Source: Streptacidiphilus anmyonensis (lineage in GTDB: Bacteria; Actinomycetota; Actinomycetes; Streptomycetales; Streptomycetaceae). From it: DNA of 49,932 nt. The position numbers and the translations under genes are program-made. Every line of letters begins with the position of its first letter. Positions within the stretch are counted from its first letter, which is position 1. A model generated the notes under the pieces. That model saw only the letters and a program-made list of their open reading frames with translations. It had not been told where the DNA came from and did not search any database. The stretch lies in the NCBI RefSeq assembly GCF_000787855.1, contig NZ_BBPQ01000056.1, positions 1 through 49,932 of the forward strand. The letters are read 5' to 3'. Below, piece by piece: positions 10,170-16,444 of this stretch.

Positions 10170-10204
10170 GGGGGAAGGAGTCCCTACAACACTCCGCTTC
10201 CCCC
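10170..10204 (+). promoter_or_regulatory. 5' leader hairpin of pntAB
   Basis: GGGGGAAG (10170-10177) pairs with CTTCCCCC (10197-10204), and GAGT (10178-10181) pairs with ACTC (10191-10194), leaving a 2-base CG bulge and a 9-base loop. If transcription starts near 10165, this is at the very 5' end of the mRNA, suggesting a stability or attenuation element. Confidence 0.45.
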
Positions 10205-10252
10205 GATCGCGGATCCCCCGTCACACCCTCCCCTGACGAGAGAACACGAGAC

Positions 10253-11818
10253 ATGTCTGCTCAAGAACCCGCGCACCACCCACCACAGCGCATCGGCGTC
10301 GTCGCCGAGTCCGCCTCCGGGGAGACGCGCGTCGCCGCCACCCCGGCGACCGTACGCCAGCTGCTGGGCCTCGGCTACGAGGTCGTCGTCGAGTCCGGGG
10401 CCGGATCGGCCTCCGGCTTCACCGACGAGGCCTATCTCGACGCCGGCGCGGGAATCGCGGGCAGCGGCGAGCCCTGGGAAGCGGACGTGGTCCTGAAGGT
10501 CAACGCCCCCACCGACGCGGAGATCGCCCGGCTGCGCGAGGGCGCGACGCTCGTCGGCCTGCTCGCCCCCGCGCAGAAGCCCGAACTCCTCCAGGCGCTC
10601 GCCGCCGCCGGGGTGACCGCCCTCTCCCTGGACGCCGTGCCCCGCATCTCGCGCGCCCAGTCGATGGACGTGCTCTCCTCCATGGCGAACATCGCCGGGT
10701 ACCGGGCCGTCATCGAGGCCGCGCACGTCTTCGGCCGGTTCTTCACCGGCCAGGTCACCGCGGCCGGCAAGGTCCCCCCGGCGAAGGTCCTCGTCGCCGG
10801 GGCGGGCGTGGCCGGTCTCGCGGCGATCGGCGCCGCGTCCTCGCTCGGCGCGATCGTGCGCGCCACCGACCCGCGCCCCGAGGTCGCCGACCAGGTGAAG
10901 TCGCTGGGCGGCGAGTACCTGCCGGTCAACGTCGTGCAGGAGCAGAGCACCGACGGCTACGCCAAGGCCACCTCCGCCGACTACGACCGCGCCGCGGCCG
11001 AGCTCTACCACGAGCAGGCCAAGGACGTGGACATCGTCGTCACCACCGCGCTCATCCCCGGCCGCCCCGCCCCGCGCCTGCTGACGGCCGACGACGTGGC
11101 GGCGATGAAGCCGGGCAGCGTCGTCGTCGACATGGCCGCCGCGATGGGCGGCAACGTCGAGGGCACGGTCGCGGGCCGGGCCGTGGTGACCGACAACGGC
11201 GTCACCATCATCGGCTACACCGACCTCGCCTCCCGGCTGCCCGCCCAGGCGTCGCAGCTGTTCGGCACCAACCTGGTGAACCTGATCAAGCTGCTGACGC
11301 CCGGCAAGGACGGGCAGCTGACGATCGACTTCGAGGACGTCGTCCAGCGGGCCGTCACCGTCGCGCAGAGCGGCGACGTCACCTGGCCGCCGCCGCCCGT
11401 CTCGGTCTCCGCCGCGCCCGCCGCGCAGCCGGCCGCCGCCCCGGCCAAGCCCGAGCCCAAGCAGCCGAAGCTGACCCCCGCGGGCCGCTTCTCCCTCATC
11501 GGCGCCGGAATGCTCGCGATGTTCCTGCTGGTGGCCTTCGCGCCCGCGCAGCTCGCGGAGAACTTCACGGTGTTCGCACTCGCGGTGGTCATCGGCTACT
11601 ACGTCATCGGCAAGGTGCACCACGCGCTGCACACCCCGCTGATGTCGGTGACCAACGCGATCTCCGGCATCGTCGTGATCGGCGCCCTGCTGCAGATCGG
11701 GCACGAGAGCTGGGTCGTCACCGCGCTGTCCTGCGTGGCGATCCTGCTGACGAGCGTCAACATCTTCGGAGGTTTCGCCGTCACCCGCCGCATGCTGTCC
11801 ATGTTCTCGAAAGGCTGA
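10253..11818 (+). CDS. pntA: NAD(P) transhydrogenase, alpha subunit
   Basis: A 521-residue subunit of the proton-translocating Re/Si-specific transhydrogenase. The NAD-binding dI domain (residues 10-385) opens with RIGVVAESASGETRVAATPA, includes QSMDVLSSMANIAGYRAVIE, the Rossmann loop VAGAGVAGLAAIGAASSLGA and DLASRLPAQASQLFGTNLVN. An Ala/Pro linker (AAPAAQPAAAPAKPEPKQPK) joins it to about four membrane helices (residues 410-520). With PntB it couples hydride transfer between NADH and NADP+ to proton movement, supplying NADPH. This is the two-subunit E. coli-type split. The ribosome site is weak (GAGAG upstream). pntB follows after 6 bases. Confidence 0.96.
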   Translation: MSAQEPAHHPPQRIGVVAESASGETRVAATPATVRQLLGLGYEVVVESGAGSASGFTDEAYLDAGAGIAGSGEPWEADVVLKVNAPTDAEIARLREGATLVGLLAPAQKPELLQALAAAGVTALSLDAVPRISRAQSMDVLSSMANIAGYRAVIEAAHVFGRFFTGQVTAAGKVPPAKVLVAGAGVAGLAAIGAASSLGAIVRATDPRPEVADQVKSLGGEYLPVNVVQEQSTDGYAKATSADYDRAAAELYHEQAKDVDIVVTTALIPGRPAPRLLTADDVAAMKPGSVVVDMAAAMGGNVEGTVAGRAVVTDNGVTIIGYTDLASRLPAQASQLFGTNLVNLIKLLTPGKDGQLTIDFEDVVQRAVTVAQSGDVTWPPPPVSVSAAPAAQPAAAPAKPEPKQPKLTPAGRFSLIGAGMLAMFLLVAFAPAQLAENFTVFALAVVIGYYVIGKVHHALHTPLMSVTNAISGIVVIGALLQIGHESWVVTALSCVAILLTSVNIFGGFAVTRRMLSMFSKG

Positions 11819-11824
11819 GCCGAG

Positions 11825-13285
11825 ATGACCTCCATGACGGCCTCCCACGCCGCCGACCTGGTCGCCGCGCTGCTGTTCATCCTCAGCCTGGCGGGCCTGT
11901 CCCAGCACCGCACCTCCCGCGCCGGCGTCGTCTACGGCATCGCCGGGATGGCGCTCGCGCTGGTCGCCACCATCGTGGTCGCCGCGCAGAGCATCACCGC
12001 CGGCGCCGTCGCGCTGATCCTGGTCGCGATGGCGATCGGCGCCGTCGTCGGCCTGTGGCGGGCCCGCAGCGTCGAGATGACGCAGATGCCCGAGCTGATC
12101 GCCGTCCTGCACAGCTTCGTCGGCCTGGCCGCCGTGCTGGTGGGCTGGAACAGCTACCTCGAGGTGGAGCGGCACGGCACGGCGCAGACCCGGATCGCCG
12201 CGGACCTGCTGAGCATCCACCACGCCGAGGTGTTCATCGGCATCTTCATCGGCGCGGTCACCTTCACCGGCTCGATCGTGGCGTTCCTGAAGCTGTCGGC
12301 GCGCATCAACTCGCGTCCGCTGATGCTGCCGGGCAAGAACTTCCTGAACCTGGGCGCGCTGGGCGCGTTCGTGGCGCTCACGGCGTGGTTCACCGTCAGT
12401 CCGAGCCTGCCGCTGATGATCGTGGTGACGGTGCTGGCGCTGGCGCTGGGCTGGCACCTGGTCGCCTCGATCGGCGGCGGCGACATGCCCGTCGTCGTGT
12501 CGATGCTGAACAGCTACTCGGGCTGGGCGGCGGCCGCGGCCGGCTTCCTGCTCGACAACAACCTGCTCATCGTCACCGGCGCGCTGGTGGGCTCCTCCGG
12601 CGCCTACCTCTCCTACATCATGTGCAGGGCGATGAACCGGTCCTTCATCTCCGTCATCGCGGGCGGCTTCGGCATCGAGGCGCCGTCCAGCCAGGAGGAG
12701 GAGCAGGGCGAGCACCGCGAGGTGCGCGCCGAGGAGGCGGCGGAGCTGCTGGCCACCGCCCGTTCGGTGATCATCACCCCCGGCTACGGCATGGCCGTCG
12801 CCCAGGCGCAGCACCCCGTCGCGGAGCTGACGCGTCAGCTGCGCGAGCGTGGCGTCGAGGTCCGCTTCGGCGTCCACCCCGTCGCCGGCCGCCTGCCCGG
12901 CCACATGAACGTGCTGCTGGCCGAGGCGAAGGTCCCCTACGACATCGTCCTGGAGATGGACGAGATCAACGAGGACTTCGCCGCCACCTCGGTCGTGCTG
13001 GTCATCGGCGCCAACGACACCGTCAACCCGGCCGCGGCCGAGGACCCGGGCAGCCCGATCGCCGGCATGCCGGTGCTGCGGGTCTGGGAGGCGGAGAGCG
13101 TCATCGTCTTCAAGCGCTCGATGGCCTCCGGCTACGCGGGCGTGCAGAACCCGCTGTTCTTCCGCGAGAACAGCAGCATGCTCTTCGGCGACGCCAAGGC
13201 GAGCGTCGACGCGATCCTCCAGGCGCTCAGCACCGACGGCCGCCGGCCGGCCGCTCCGGCGCCGCGTCAGACGGTCGCGGGCTAG
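11825..13285 (+). CDS. pntB: NAD(P) transhydrogenase, beta subunit
   Basis: A 486-residue membrane subunit. About nine helices span residues 8-270 (dII), including [40 protein letters not shown] and the conserved [20 protein letters not shown]. The NADP-binding dIII domain (from about residue 310) carries [60 protein letters not shown] and [19 protein letters not shown], all typical of the family. It forms the proton channel with PntA and is clearly co-transcribed with it. A strong terminator begins 17 bases after the stop. Confidence 0.97.
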
Positions 13286-13302
13286 GCCCTCCCGCTCCAC
13301 CC

Positions 13303-13346
13303 CGGGTGCCCCGGTCTCCGCCTCGGAGGCCGGGGCACCCGATTTT
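13303..13346 (+). terminator. Rho-independent terminator of pntAB
   Basis: CGGGTGCCCCGG (13303-13314) pairs with CCGGGGCACCCG (13330-13341). Inside it, CTCCG pairs with CGGAG around a CCT loop, extending the stem to about 18 pairs, and TTTT follows at 13343-13346. Confidence 0.85.
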
Positions 13347-13445
13347 GACATTCCTTTACAACCCCGGCCCCGGGGTGCGTCGTCTCTCCTGCCGCTCGAC
13401 GCTCACCGCTCGATGCGTTCGGATCGACAAGGGAGACGCACGACC

Positions 13446-14225
13446 ATGCGCAGCAGCAGTAAGGCCCTGCGGGCCGCCGCCACCGGCGCCGCCTCGGTGG
13501 CGCTCGGGGCCTCGGCCCTCGCGTTCGCGCCGTTCGCCGGCGCGGCCACGCCGGCGACCACCCCCATGTGCACCACCGCCCAGCTGACCGGCGCGCTCGG
13601 CGGCGAGGACGCGGGCGCCGGACAGCTCTACTACGACGTGGTGCTCACCAACCACGGCTCCACCACCTGCCACCTCACCGGCTACCCCGGGGTGTCGGTG
13701 CTCGACTCGCACGGCAACCAGATCGGCGCGCCCGCCACCCACGACCCGCGGGCCTACGACACCGTCGAGCTGGCCCCGCACGCCTCGGCCACCACCACCA
13801 TCCACACCGGCAACCGGATGACGAACAACCCCGGCGAGTGCCGGCCCACCTCCACCTCGCTGCGCGTCTACCCGCCGGGCAACCGCGCCTCGCTGGTCGT
13901 CCCCGCCAAGGTGACGGTCTGCGACATCTTCACCCTCATCCCGATGGTCGCGGGCGGCAGCACCCTGCCCACCCCGCCGGCCGGCGGCGGCAGCGGCTCC
14001 GGCACGCCGACGGCCACACCGAGCTCCGGCTCCTCGGCGATCCCCTCGGCCGCGCCGACCTCGCAGGTCAGCGCGGTGCCGAGCGGCGCTCCCGCGACCG
14101 GTGAGGCGCCGACCTCCTCCGACGGATCCGGGGGCGCGCTGGCGGTCGGCGGCGGCGCGCTGCTGGTGGTCGGCGGCACGGGCGTCGCGGTCGCCCGTGC
14201 CCGGCGCTCCCGGGCGCGGGGCTGA
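13446..14225 (+). CDS. Secreted DUF4232 protein with C-terminal sorting-like anchor
   Basis: A 259-residue protein; the ATG at 13446 follows GGGAGAC. A signal peptide (ALRAAATGAASVALGASALA, cleavage near AGA-AT) leads to a DUF4232 domain (about residues 40-160) with four Cys in the positions expected for two disulfides (MCTTAQL, TTCHLTGYPG, GECRPTS, VTVCDIF). A Ser/Thr/Pro/Gly-rich, wall-spanning-like linker follows. The C-terminus has APATGE, then a hydrophobic segment (ALAVGGGALLVVGGTGVAVA) and an Arg-rich tail, the plan of a sortase sorting signal but with Ala instead of Leu at the first motif position. The next gene is sortase-like and starts on this stop codon. The domain is very similar to the one in the membrane protein two genes further on. 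Confidence 0.88.
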   Translation: MRSSSKALRAAATGAASVALGASALAFAPFAGAATPATTPMCTTAQLTGALGGEDAGAGQLYYDVVLTNHGSTTCHLTGYPGVSVLDSHGNQIGAPATHDPRAYDTVELAPHASATTTIHTGNRMTNNPGECRPTSTSLRVYPPGNRASLVVPAKVTVCDIFTLIPMVAGGSTLPTPPAGGGSGSGTPTATPSSGSSAIPSAAPTSQVSAVPSGAPATGEAPTSSDGSGGALAVGGGALLVVGGTGVAVARARRSRARG

Positions 14226-14899
14226 TGCCGCGTCGCCCGGAGGCGGCACGGTCGGCACGCTCGGGGCGGTCGGGGCGGCCGGGGCGGACCGCACGGACCG
14301 GTGTCGCGCTCGCGGCCTGCGGGCTGCTGCTCGCGGGCTGCGCCGCGCACGCCGACAGCTCCCCGCCGGCGGCCCCGGTGTCGGCGGGCGGGTCGGCGTC
14401 GGCCTCCGCGCCGTCCGGCGTTCCGGTCGCGCCGCTGGGCCGGTCGCTTCCGGTGGGGCTGACCATCGCGTCGATCGGCGTGCACGCGTCCGTGATGTCC
14501 GTCGGGCTGAACCCCGACGGCACGGTCGGCGTGCCGCCGATCGAGGCGAACGCGCCCGCCGCCTGGTACGACGGGACGCCGACGCCGGGCCAGACCGGCC
14601 CGTCGGTGATCCTCGGGCACGTCACCGTCGGGCAGTTCGGCGACGGGGTCTTCCTGCACCTGTCGCGGATGCGGCCGGGCGACCGGATCGAGGTGAAGCG
14701 GCAGGACGGCTCGACGGCGGTGTTCACCGTCGACCGGGTGCAGACCGTCGGCAAGTCCGCCTTCCCGACCTCGGCCGTCTACGGGAACGTCGACCACCCC
14801 GCGCTGCGTCTCATCACGTGCGGCGGCCCGCATCTGAGCGGCGGCGGCTATCCGGACAACGTGATCGTCTACGCCTCTCTCACCGGGACCGCGTCCTGA
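14225..14899 (+). CDS. Class F sortase-like lipoprotein lacking the usual catalytic Arg
   Basis: A 224-residue protein whose ATG overlaps the preceding stop by one base, so the two are coupled. The N-terminus is basic, then hydrophobic, ending in the lipobox LLAGC (Cys near residue 39), which predicts a lipoprotein. After a Ser/Ala/Pro linker comes a class F sortase domain (about residues 80-224): IASIGVHASVMSVGLNPDG, AAWYDGTPTPGQTGPSVILG, the catalytic His in GHVTVGQFGDGVF and the catalytic Cys in RLITCGG. The family normally has a catalytic Arg shortly after the Cys (about DR before SYxxNVVVYA); here the stretch reads PHLSGGGYPDNVIVYA, with no Arg. It may be an altered or inactive sortase. 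The adjacent DUF4232 protein is its obvious candidate substrate. Confidence 0.85.
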   Translation: MPRRPEAARSARSGRSGRPGRTARTGVALAACGLLLAGCAAHADSSPPAAPVSAGGSASASAPSGVPVAPLGRSLPVGLTIASIGVHASVMSVGLNPDGTVGVPPIEANAPAAWYDGTPTPGQTGPSVILGHVTVGQFGDGVFLHLSRMRPGDRIEVKRQDGSTAVFTVDRVQTVGKSAFPTSAVYGNVDHPALRLITCGGPHLSGGGYPDNVIVYASLTGTAS

Positions 14900-14949
14900 A
14901 CGTCGGGGTGCGCAGCCGGGAGTGGGCCGCGGAAACCGGGCCCGAGGTC

Positions 14950-15546
14950 ATGAGGGGGGCGGTCACCGCGGATCGCACGGAGCACACGGAACACGCGCAC
15001 GGGACCGAGCGCGCGCACGGCACGGAACGCGCGGGGCGCAGGGAGCGAAGAGAACGCCGCAAGGCGTCGGAGGAGGACGCGGCCGAACTGTTCCGCAGCC
15101 TCTACCCGCGCCTGGCGGGCTGGTGCCGTCGTCTGGTCGACGACGACGGCACCGCCCACGAGATCGCCTCCGAGGCCTTCACCCGGCTGTGGGCGCGCTG
15201 GACCACGGTCGACGAACCGACCGGGTTCCTCTACGTCACCTCCGCCAACCTGGTGCGCGACCACTGGCGCAGAATGGAGCGCGAACGGCGCGCGCTGCGC
15301 CGGGCGGGGCAGGAGGAGTCGGTGCGCCAGACCGTCGAGGGGGACGAGCCTTCGGTGCGGCTGCTGGTCCAGTCGCTCCCCGAGCGCCTGCGCGACCCGG
15401 TGCTGCTGTACTACTTCGCGGACCTGCCGGTGCGTGAGGTCGCGGCGCGCCTCGGCCGTCCCGAAGGCACCGTCAAGTCCGACCTGCGCACCGCCCGCGA
15501 ACTGCTCCGTGCGACCCTTGGGGGCTTCCATGACCCGATCCGCTGA
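14950..15546 (+). CDS. ECF-type RNA polymerase sigma factor
   Basis: A sigma-70 family protein of 198 residues from the ATG, or 212 if a GTG at 14908 is used; neither has a convincing ribosome site. The N-terminal tail is unusual: a repeated, charged stretch (TEHAHGTERAHGTERAGRRE). Region 2 (about residues 45-110) contains FRSLYPRLAGWCRRLVDDDG, HEIASEAFTRLWARW and TGFLYVTSANLVRDHWRR. Region 4 (about 135-190) contains SLPERLRDPVLLYYFADLPV, REVAARLGRPEGTVKSDL and RTARELLR. The next gene starts inside its last codons, a strong sign of a sigma/anti-sigma pair. Position after the DUF4232 and sortase genes suggests it controls this surface module. Confidence 0.88.
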   Translation: MRGAVTADRTEHTEHAHGTERAHGTERAGRRERRERRKASEEDAAELFRSLYPRLAGWCRRLVDDDGTAHEIASEAFTRLWARWTTVDEPTGFLYVTSANLVRDHWRRMERERRALRRAGQEESVRQTVEGDEPSVRLLVQSLPERLRDPVLLYYFADLPVREVAARLGRPEGTVKSDLRTARELLRATLGGFHDPIR

Positions 15547-16444
15547 CCGCTTCGGCCCGGACGGCGACGCGGACCGCCACGCGGACGACCCGGGCGGGCC
15601 GGACGCCGGAACCGATCCGCTCGCGGAGCTGGCGCGCGGTCCCTTCGAGTCGCTGCCCATCCCGGAGGGCGCCTTCGGCGAGCTGCGGCGGCGCGCGGCC
15701 CGGCGCAGACGCCGGCGTGCGACGCTGAGCGCCACGGCGGGCGTCGGCGTGCTCGCGGTGGCGGTCTACCTGACCGGGGCGTTCTCCCCGCAAGGCCCCG
15801 GCGAGGTCGTCACCCCGCCCGCGAGCGCCGGACACGGCGTGTCCAACCCGGTGACCGTGCCGCCCTCGACCGGACCGGGCAGCGCCCACTCCCCGTCCCC
15901 GACGCCTTCGGCGGCTCCCACGACGAGCACCCCGACCGGCGGCACGGGCGGCTCGGCGAGCGCGAGCGCTCCCGCGAGCGCCGGCGGCACCCCGACGGCG
16001 GGGACCGGCGGGACCGGCGGCACCCCGCTGTGCACCGCCGCCCAACTGGCCCCGCACCTGGGCGGGGGCAACGCGGGCGCGGGCCAGATCTACACCTACC
16101 TGGTCGTCACCAACCGCAGCTCCACGCCGTGCCATGTGACGGGCTTCCCCGGGCTGTCGCTGCTGGACGCCTCGGGCCGTCAGATCGGCGTGCCGGCGAC
16201 CTACGACCACCTGGCGTACGCGCCGGTGGTGCTGGCCCCGGGCGCGTCGGCGAGCGACACCATCCACACGGTGAACCGCCAGACGAACAACCCCTCGGAG
16301 TGCCAGCCGGCCTCGACGTCCCTGCGGATCTACCCGCCGGGCAGCCGCGCGTCGCTGGTCTTCCCCGGTCAGGTGACGGTCTGCCTGGGCACCTTCGAGG
16401 TGACGCCGTTCGGTCCGGGCGCCACCGGCAATCCGGCGAACTGA
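15530..16444 (+). CDS. Membrane protein with extracytoplasmic DUF4232 domain, likely anti-sigma partner
   Basis: A 304-residue protein from an ATG overlapping the sigma gene by 17 bases. Residues 1-65 are cytoplasmic and charged (PLAELARGPFESLPIPEGAF, then an Arg-rich run); one transmembrane helix follows at about 67-85 (ATLSATAGVGVLAVAVYLTG). A long Ser/Thr/Pro/Gly linker leads to a DUF4232 domain (about 165-300) with the same four-Cys pattern as the secreted protein upstream. My hand alignment gives about 65% identity over roughly 118 residues. Overlap with an ECF gene, a short cytoplasmic part and a single helix suit an anti-sigma or co-sensor role. I see no zinc-binding HxxxCxxC motif, so if it is an anti-sigma factor it is not of the ZAS type. 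Confidence 0.82.
   Translation: MTRSADRFGPDGDADRHADDPGGPDAGTDPLAELARGPFESLPIPEGAFGELRRRAARRRRRRATLSATAGVGVLAVAVYLTGAFSPQGPGEVVTPPASAGHGVSNPVTVPPSTGPGSAHSPSPTPSAAPTTSTPTGGTGGSASASAPASAGGTPTAGTGGTGGTPLCTAAQLAPHLGGGNAGAGQIYTYLVVTNRSSTPCHVTGFPGLSLLDASGRQIGVPATYDHLAYAPVVLAPGASASDTIHTVNRQTNNPSECQPASTSLRIYPPGSRASLVFPGQVTVCLGTFEVTPFGPGATGNPAN

Follow-up and report, generated by a model that had tools for sequence, protein, structure and literature searches.

A four-gene actinobacterial locus suggests an autoregulated sigma factor circuit for a single sortase-anchored wall protein

Why should a secreted protein and the external part of a nearby membrane protein carry the same domain, DUF4232, when the two genes between them encode a sortase and a sigma factor? 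The question is raised by a four-gene locus in a stretch of 49,932 nucleotides of Streptacidiphilus anmyonensis (hereafter the window), which is contig C98 of the 9.39 Mb genome G000. An initial annotation of this DNA read the arrangement as a ligand/sensor mirror, in which the membrane protein senses the state of the wall-anchored protein, or binding between the two domains controls the sigma factor. Our analysis favors, with a probability of roughly 0.63, an autoregulated circuit of an extracytoplasmic function (ECF) sigma factor and its anti-sigma factor, serving one sortase-anchored wall protein and equipped with a mirrored sensor. In such a circuit the sigma factor would transcribe, from a promoter of the form TTACAACC-N16/17-CGTCTCT, the genes for the wall protein, a class F sortase, itself and its transmembrane (TM) partner, and in the window species and a few related species it would also drive one unlinked secreted DUF4232 protein. 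The lipid-tethered sortase would anchor the wall protein, while the membrane partner would hold the sigma factor through a short basic cytoplasmic segment and release it when a signal reaches the DUF4232 domain outside. We infer what this domain senses from its being a near copy of the wall-protein domain: the ligand or surface state that it reads is most likely the one read by the wall protein, on the principle known from RsgI. The two domains may also touch each other directly, although the circuit does not require it.

Gene order and the overlapping sigma factor and membrane protein genes

All four genes lie on the forward strand, in the close-packed order with two overlaps given by the initial annotation; coordinates and junctions were confirmed on re-reading. 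The first gene (13446..14225; product P0003) encodes a candidate sortase substrate of the wall-anchor type, with a signal peptide, a DUF4232 domain (PF14016), a stalk rich in Pro, Ser and Thr, and a sorting signal. It overlaps the class F sortase gene (14225..14899; NF033748) by 1 nucleotide (nt) in the string TGATG. The ECF sigma factor gene (14950..15546) follows after 50 nt if translation begins at the ATG at 14950, a start that is uncertain, with the frame open upstream. Its end overlaps by 17 nt the gene of a one-TM protein, a putative anti-sigma factor (15530..16444; product P0004), which starts inside the sigma gene. The sigma factor has 198 residues and exceeds the Pfam cut-offs for Sigma70_r2 (PF04542, 38.3 bits, cut-off 24) and Sigma70_r4_2 (PF08281, 47.3 bits, cut-off 25.7), which identifies it as an ECF factor with regions 2 and 4 only; against the SigE family (TIGR02983) it scores 86.3 bits, below the cut-off of 141.55.

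The initial annotation had named conservation of the gene order in relatives as a check, and the order is conserved. The sample consisted of 114 loci, each centered on the sigma factor or on one of its relatives, namely 33 from one genome set (drawn from 39 places found), the best 80 of 401, and the window. Removal of seven known duplicates left 107 loci, among which there may be further duplicates and to which some genomes contribute two. A class F sortase gene lies directly upstream of the sigma gene in 102 of the 107; the five without one just upstream (L044-L046, L073 and L074) are distant loci. A substrate with the GAPxTG motif and a hydrophobic tail was called in 97 of these 102 sortase-sigma loci, and a TM partner likewise in 97, of which 92 are complete; in all of the 97 but L095 and L131, thus in 95, a hydrophobic segment is clearly visible. 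Where no substrate was called, three loci are cut by contig ends, and none was found in L041 and L062. The window genome also holds a second four-gene module, with DUF4232 on neither protein (L038; G000:C126:44000-56000); we refer to such modules and their proteins as DUF-less.

The TM partner is probably an anti-sigma factor, as judged from the gene overlap, the topology and a conserved basic motif, and with no domain match to guide the assignment. The motif, LPIPEGAFGELRRRAARRRRRR (15653..15718), lies in the cytoplasmic part ahead of the TM helix, in a layout that recurs among the loci compared, and its L, P, G and R columns are invariant in 53 DUF-less relatives. Searches with P0004 returned DUF4232 alone in Pfam and sub-threshold matches alone in NCBIfam, with no known anti-sigma domain, and neither database gave a match to the RsgI N-terminal domain at E ≤ 0.1. 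These negative searches would suit a different explanation, in which the TM protein is a structural surface protein, translationally coupled to the sigma gene by chance and without any anti-sigma function. However, 93 of the 103 loci with enough downstream DNA have a start codon at the 17-nt overlap with the sigma gene, followed by at least 60 open codons, a count made without scoring that favors particular offsets, and the basic cytoplasmic motif is conserved even where the ectodomain differs. We therefore regard a purely structural role as quite improbable.

Several features of the TM partners and their genes are recorded here in their own right. Among the TM genes of 101 loci, those that start at the 17-nt overlap use TTG in 74 cases and ATG in 19; the listed ATG-start genes belong to DUF4232 modules, and the TTG-start genes to DUF-less ones. 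Outside the cell, near the membrane after the TM helix, a P..PLAPPP motif is conserved in 53 DUF-less TM proteins and is possibly a cleavage or contact site. In L073 and L074, which come from another family of the order, a sigma relative is followed by a DUF4232 TM protein with no class F sortase directly upstream, so that the pair of sigma factor and DUF4232 TM protein exists without the sortase half. The still more distant L045 and L046 keep the layout of sigma factor, basic motif and TM helix with quite different ectodomains, a pattern that points to a wider family of ECF partners whose sensors can be exchanged.

In the window, the module is flanked upstream by pntA-pntB and downstream by genes for an AraC-type regulator and a glyoxalase-like protein (Pfam). 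A 1055-residue open frame on the reverse strand (10184-13351), antisense to pntA-pntB, looks like the mirror frame of high-GC DNA and not like a gene. The sigma factor matches its S. melanogenes homologue at 97%.

The promoter and the genes that it precedes

A predicted promoter lies on the forward strand at 13356..13387, 58 nt ahead of the substrate gene's start codon, with TTACAACC as its -35 and CGTCTCT as its -10 element (pattern TTRCAACN{16,18}CGTCTCT). ECF promoters carry AAC in the -35 and CGTC in the -10 element, and the form found here, TTACAACC-N16/17-CGTCTCT, resembles them. The exact pattern is present upstream in 91 of the 96 module loci with enough upstream DNA, and in 95 when A or G is allowed at position 6; L041 has neither, and mononucleotide shuffles gave 0.0. 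The module is probably transcribed by its own sigma factor.

The pattern is also specific to genomes with this sigma factor. In 297 Streptomycetaceae genomes there are 107 sites, which fall in 100 of the 102 genomes that bear the sigma factor (E ≤ 1e-50) and in none of the 195 others; the two exceptions among the sigma-bearing genomes, G121 and G261, are those with the weakest sigma matches. Most of the sites (96 of 107) have a sigma gene 996-1931 nt downstream on the same strand. Among the 11 that remain, two (G006 C24 and G008 C145) belong to substrates of modules whose contigs are broken, two more (G099 and G221) look like such substrates, and four precede a secreted DUF4232 gene (G000, G006, G008 and G007).

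The window genome has exactly two exact sites, one at the module and the other before the unlinked gene of P0005, a secreted protein of 177 residues with a DUF4232 domain (87.5 bits); the reversed pattern has no match in this genome. Allowing one mismatch at spacer N17 adds the paralogous module and nothing else. The promoter of that module, on contig C126, reads TTACAGC in place of TTACAAC, and TTACAGC occurs in four of the six second-copy loci scanned (including G002, G004 and G006), with none found in the other two. Orthologues of the P0005 gene have the exact site in G000, G006, G008 and G007 and a site with one mismatch in G013, with differing spacers, and each of these five genomes carries a DUF4232 module; the G007 orthologue with the site is frame-broken.

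The two DUF4232 domains of the module

The DUF4232 domain of the substrate (residues 42-156; 13569..13913) and the ectodomain of the TM protein (residues 168-294; 16031..16411) score 107.7 and 105.4 bits against PF14016, far above its cut-off of 27, so both domain calls of the initial annotation stand. Its hand alignment, which gave about 65% identity over some 118 residues with four shared Cys, is borne out by a computed alignment (62% over 128 residues, E=1e-51) and by the four Cys being invariant across 32 aligned DUF4232 domains. The likeness of the two window proteins is limited to this domain. There are seven DUF4232 matches in the window genome, of which the module pair are the top two, and adjacent. 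AlphaFold2 predicts both domains to be all-beta, with a mean predicted local distance difference test score of 84.9 for the TM protein and 79.5 for the other; neither has a close relative in the PDB, the search by fold covering the TM-protein domain alone.

DUF4232 occurs on both proteins of a module or on neither. By a local profile, the complete modules carry it on both sides in 18 cases, on neither in 70 and on one side only in none, with 14 more modules incomplete. The upstream domain is in frame with the sorting signal in 17 of the 18, the other being the frame-broken L156. Pfam likewise found DUF4232 in none of the 53 DUF-less TM proteins (of 54 listed) and none of the 59 DUF-less substrates (of 61) that were scanned, a check that omitted the masked L123 and the doubtful starts of L098 and L115. 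In a quick tree of the sigma factors, the 22 DUF4232 sortase modules form one clade with a support of 98 in the SH-like approximate likelihood ratio test (SH-aLRT), which rules out many independent gains of the pair. The co-occurrence therefore amounts to about one event, kept since, and the whole sigma tree requires two changes because the sortase-less L073 and L074 also carry DUF4232 on the TM partner.

The initial annotation had allowed that the pair might be merely a recent tandem duplication. A recent duplication private to the window is ruled out by the 62% identity and by the presence of the same pair in 16 other loci. A single duplication followed by separate evolution is rejected as well: in a set of 38 module domains (omitting L156, L073, L074 and other DUF4232), monophyly of the substrate domains (D) fails the approximately unbiased test (p=4.9e-5, log-likelihood difference 94.8), and among 51 DUF4232 domains, no tree of the 200 bootstrap replicates groups all the D domains together or all the TM-protein domains (A).

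Within genomes the two domains show concerted evolution, to which gene conversion contributes. Over 17 loci the mean identity is 70.8% between D and A of the same genome, 66.1% between D and D, 65.8% between A and A, and 63.1% between D and A of different genomes; permutation gives p=1e-4 for the excess within genomes, uncorrected for shared ancestry. Identity at fourfold sites is raised within genomes (66.5%, compared with 59.8% across genomes and 48.4% by chance), which makes gene conversion one source of the likeness, and identical runs between D and A within genomes reach 44 nt. The concerted effect is weak in the window, where D and A share 63% and the window D shares 76% with the D of L084. 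Four pairs (the window, L083, L084 and L087) have an insertion of four residues in each of their domains and ten have it in neither, with no mixed pair, in an alignment that excludes L052, L054, L055 and L156.

Such conversion might account for everything, in that, acting neutrally, it could alone keep neighboring DUF4232 repeats alike and leave the TM domain as a passive ectodomain. The raised synonymous identity and the identical runs of up to 44 nt are in keeping with this, as is the spacing of the window domains, whose starts are about 2.5 kb apart. However, no copy is missing from any of the 18 complete DUF4232 modules (with L156 frame-broken), the likeness in the window stops at the domain, the genome's other exact promoter site also precedes a DUF4232 gene, and the TM partner carries DUF4232 in the distant sigma relatives L073 and L074 too. 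On balance we consider neutral conversion rather unlikely to be the whole explanation. A further alternative is homotypic self-sensing, in which the DUF4232 domain of the wall protein, or of its not-yet-anchored form, binds that of the TM protein and so reports the amount of substrate made or anchored. The excess of within-genome D-A identity over D-D, A-A and cross-genome D-A identity points in this direction, as does the insertion that is never mixed within an aligned pair. Yet conversion explains part of that excess, as the fourfold sites indicate; the window D is nearer to the D of L084 than to its own A; 70 modules do without DUF4232; and a third secreted DUF4232 protein under the same promoter might compete for binding. 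Homotypic self-sensing thus seems unlikely to us.

A reading based purely on DUF4232 has against it that the domain is on neither protein in 70 of the 88 complete modules, which confines the mirror to one clade. The likeness of the paired domains is partly maintained by gene conversion, which can be neutral. The circuit that we favor, with an ECF sigma factor and anti-sigma factor serving the wall protein, has to be weighed against other observations. The 53 DUF-less TM relatives match no anti-sigma model in Pfam and have a single CnrY/NccY match in NCBIfam (E=0.019). The promoter motif was derived from the module loci, so that its presence there is by construction and the independent part of the evidence is its absence elsewhere together with the extra sites. 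Three of these precede other secreted proteins, in G003, G109 and G223 (by reading, a peptidase in the latter two), and a reversed control pattern has eight matches in the 297 genomes, compared with seven real sites outside modules; a single extra site therefore proves little, and what carries weight is its recurrence at orthologues. Nine genus genomes carry a DUF4232 module, and in five of them the secreted DUF4232 gene has the site; the site is missing from P0005 homologues in G003 and G010 and from a second G007 copy, and the gene is absent from seven of 14 genus genomes at E ≤ 1e-8. The mirror with sigma control, as first proposed, gains from the conserved order, the specific ECF-type promoter, the genome's other exact site before a secreted DUF4232 gene and the domains being kept alike; its purely DUF4232-based form is weakened by the DUF-less modules.

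The class F sortase, its candidate substrate and known systems

What had been described as a sortase-like lipoprotein can be identified more sharply. The lipobox LAGC is present near its N-terminus (Cys39; 14330-14341), and its score of 185 bits against NF033748, with a cut-off of 166, places the protein in class F. The predicted catalytic His and Cys, and an Asn replacing the Arg, can be read by eye in LGHV, LITCGG and PDNV; Asn in place of the catalytic Arg is described for actinobacterial class F sortases in PMC6998099. A lipobox rule is satisfied by 97 of the 102 module sortases, the five failures being L093 (cut), L099 and L134 (masked), L156 (frame-broken) and L061, whose CAGC was missed by the rule. 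Sortases are usually described as TM-anchored; those of the module look like lipoproteins, and the lipid anchoring of the window enzyme is predicted on the same grounds. A loose twin-arginine rule (RRx-hydrophobic) fits 57 of the 97 lipobox sortases. Many Streptomyces module sortases have the signal SRRAF...LLVGC, by reading a twin-arginine-like lipoprotein signal.

The sorting signal of P0003 consists of GAPATG (14085..14102, forward strand), a hydrophobic stretch and an Arg-rich tail, so that the protein combines the signal peptide, xPxTG-type motif, hydrophobic stretch and basic tail of a sortase substrate. GAPxTG is found in the 97 substrates called among the 102 loci, and its G, A, P, T and G are invariant across an alignment of 59 DUF-less substrates. 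The Pfam model Gram_pos_anchor (PF00746) does not match P0003 at E ≤ 0.1, and at this threshold matches two of the 59 DUF-less substrates (best 0.0093). A sorting-tail profile searched against the window genome, with 150 of 343 candidates scored, gave strong matches to the two module substrates alone (1.1e-18 and 8.5e-17), the next match being at 9e-4. The two genes are neighbors, the motif is fixed and sortases and substrates correspond one to one in number, all of which suggests that the sortase acts on the module substrate.

PMC6998099 and PMC13251363 give the role of class F sortases as unknown, and the latter reports no phenotypic change in an Actinoplanes mutant without all four class F genes. 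Through the module, one class F sortase gains a candidate private substrate, whose motif PxGAPxTG is fixed, together with a promoter and a candidate regulator; the DUF-less version of the module is present in Streptomyces. A bolder proposal, which we consider doubtful, is that the lipid-anchored sortase processes this one private substrate and that the anti-sigma factor, with its copy of the substrate's domain, reads the free, unprocessed or wall-bound substrate, so that display would feed back on its own transcription, the copies being co-adapted and homogenised in each lineage. A sortase-coupled signaling circuit of this kind was not found in the literature searched. Neither DUF4232 nor CU044_5270 is mentioned there, which is weak evidence, as most subscription journals lay outside the search, and the accessible parts of PMC3123327 and PMC4255298 do not describe the four-gene module. 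The locus represents an actinobacterial case in which the outside part of a regulator shares a domain with a protein under its proposed control.

Comparison with known systems places these features in context. Among class F sortases, that of the window scores above the class cut-off, and the module enzymes differ by their lipobox (97 of 102). The BldN/RsbN/chaplin system of Streptomyces includes, to our knowledge, no class F sortase, and we know of no domain shared by RsbN and the chaplins; RsbN is a membrane protein, and the genes of the system are not known to lie in one operon. We also know of no sortase in SigI/RsgI systems. Like the module, BldN and RsbN are an ECF sigma factor and a cognate anti-sigma factor that control surface proteins, sortase substrates among them (PMC4255298). 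The SigI/RsgI systems of Clostridium thermocellum differ from the module in that SigI is without sigma region 4 (PMC4711584), which the module sigma factor has, and in a regulon of many enzymes; P0004, moreover, has no match to the RsgI N-domain. They resemble it in an autoregulated sigma factor, a one-TM anti-sigma factor and an outside domain that resembles, or binds the target of, the controlled enzymes, as where RsgI6 carries GH10 and SigI6 activates xylanase genes (PMC4711584).

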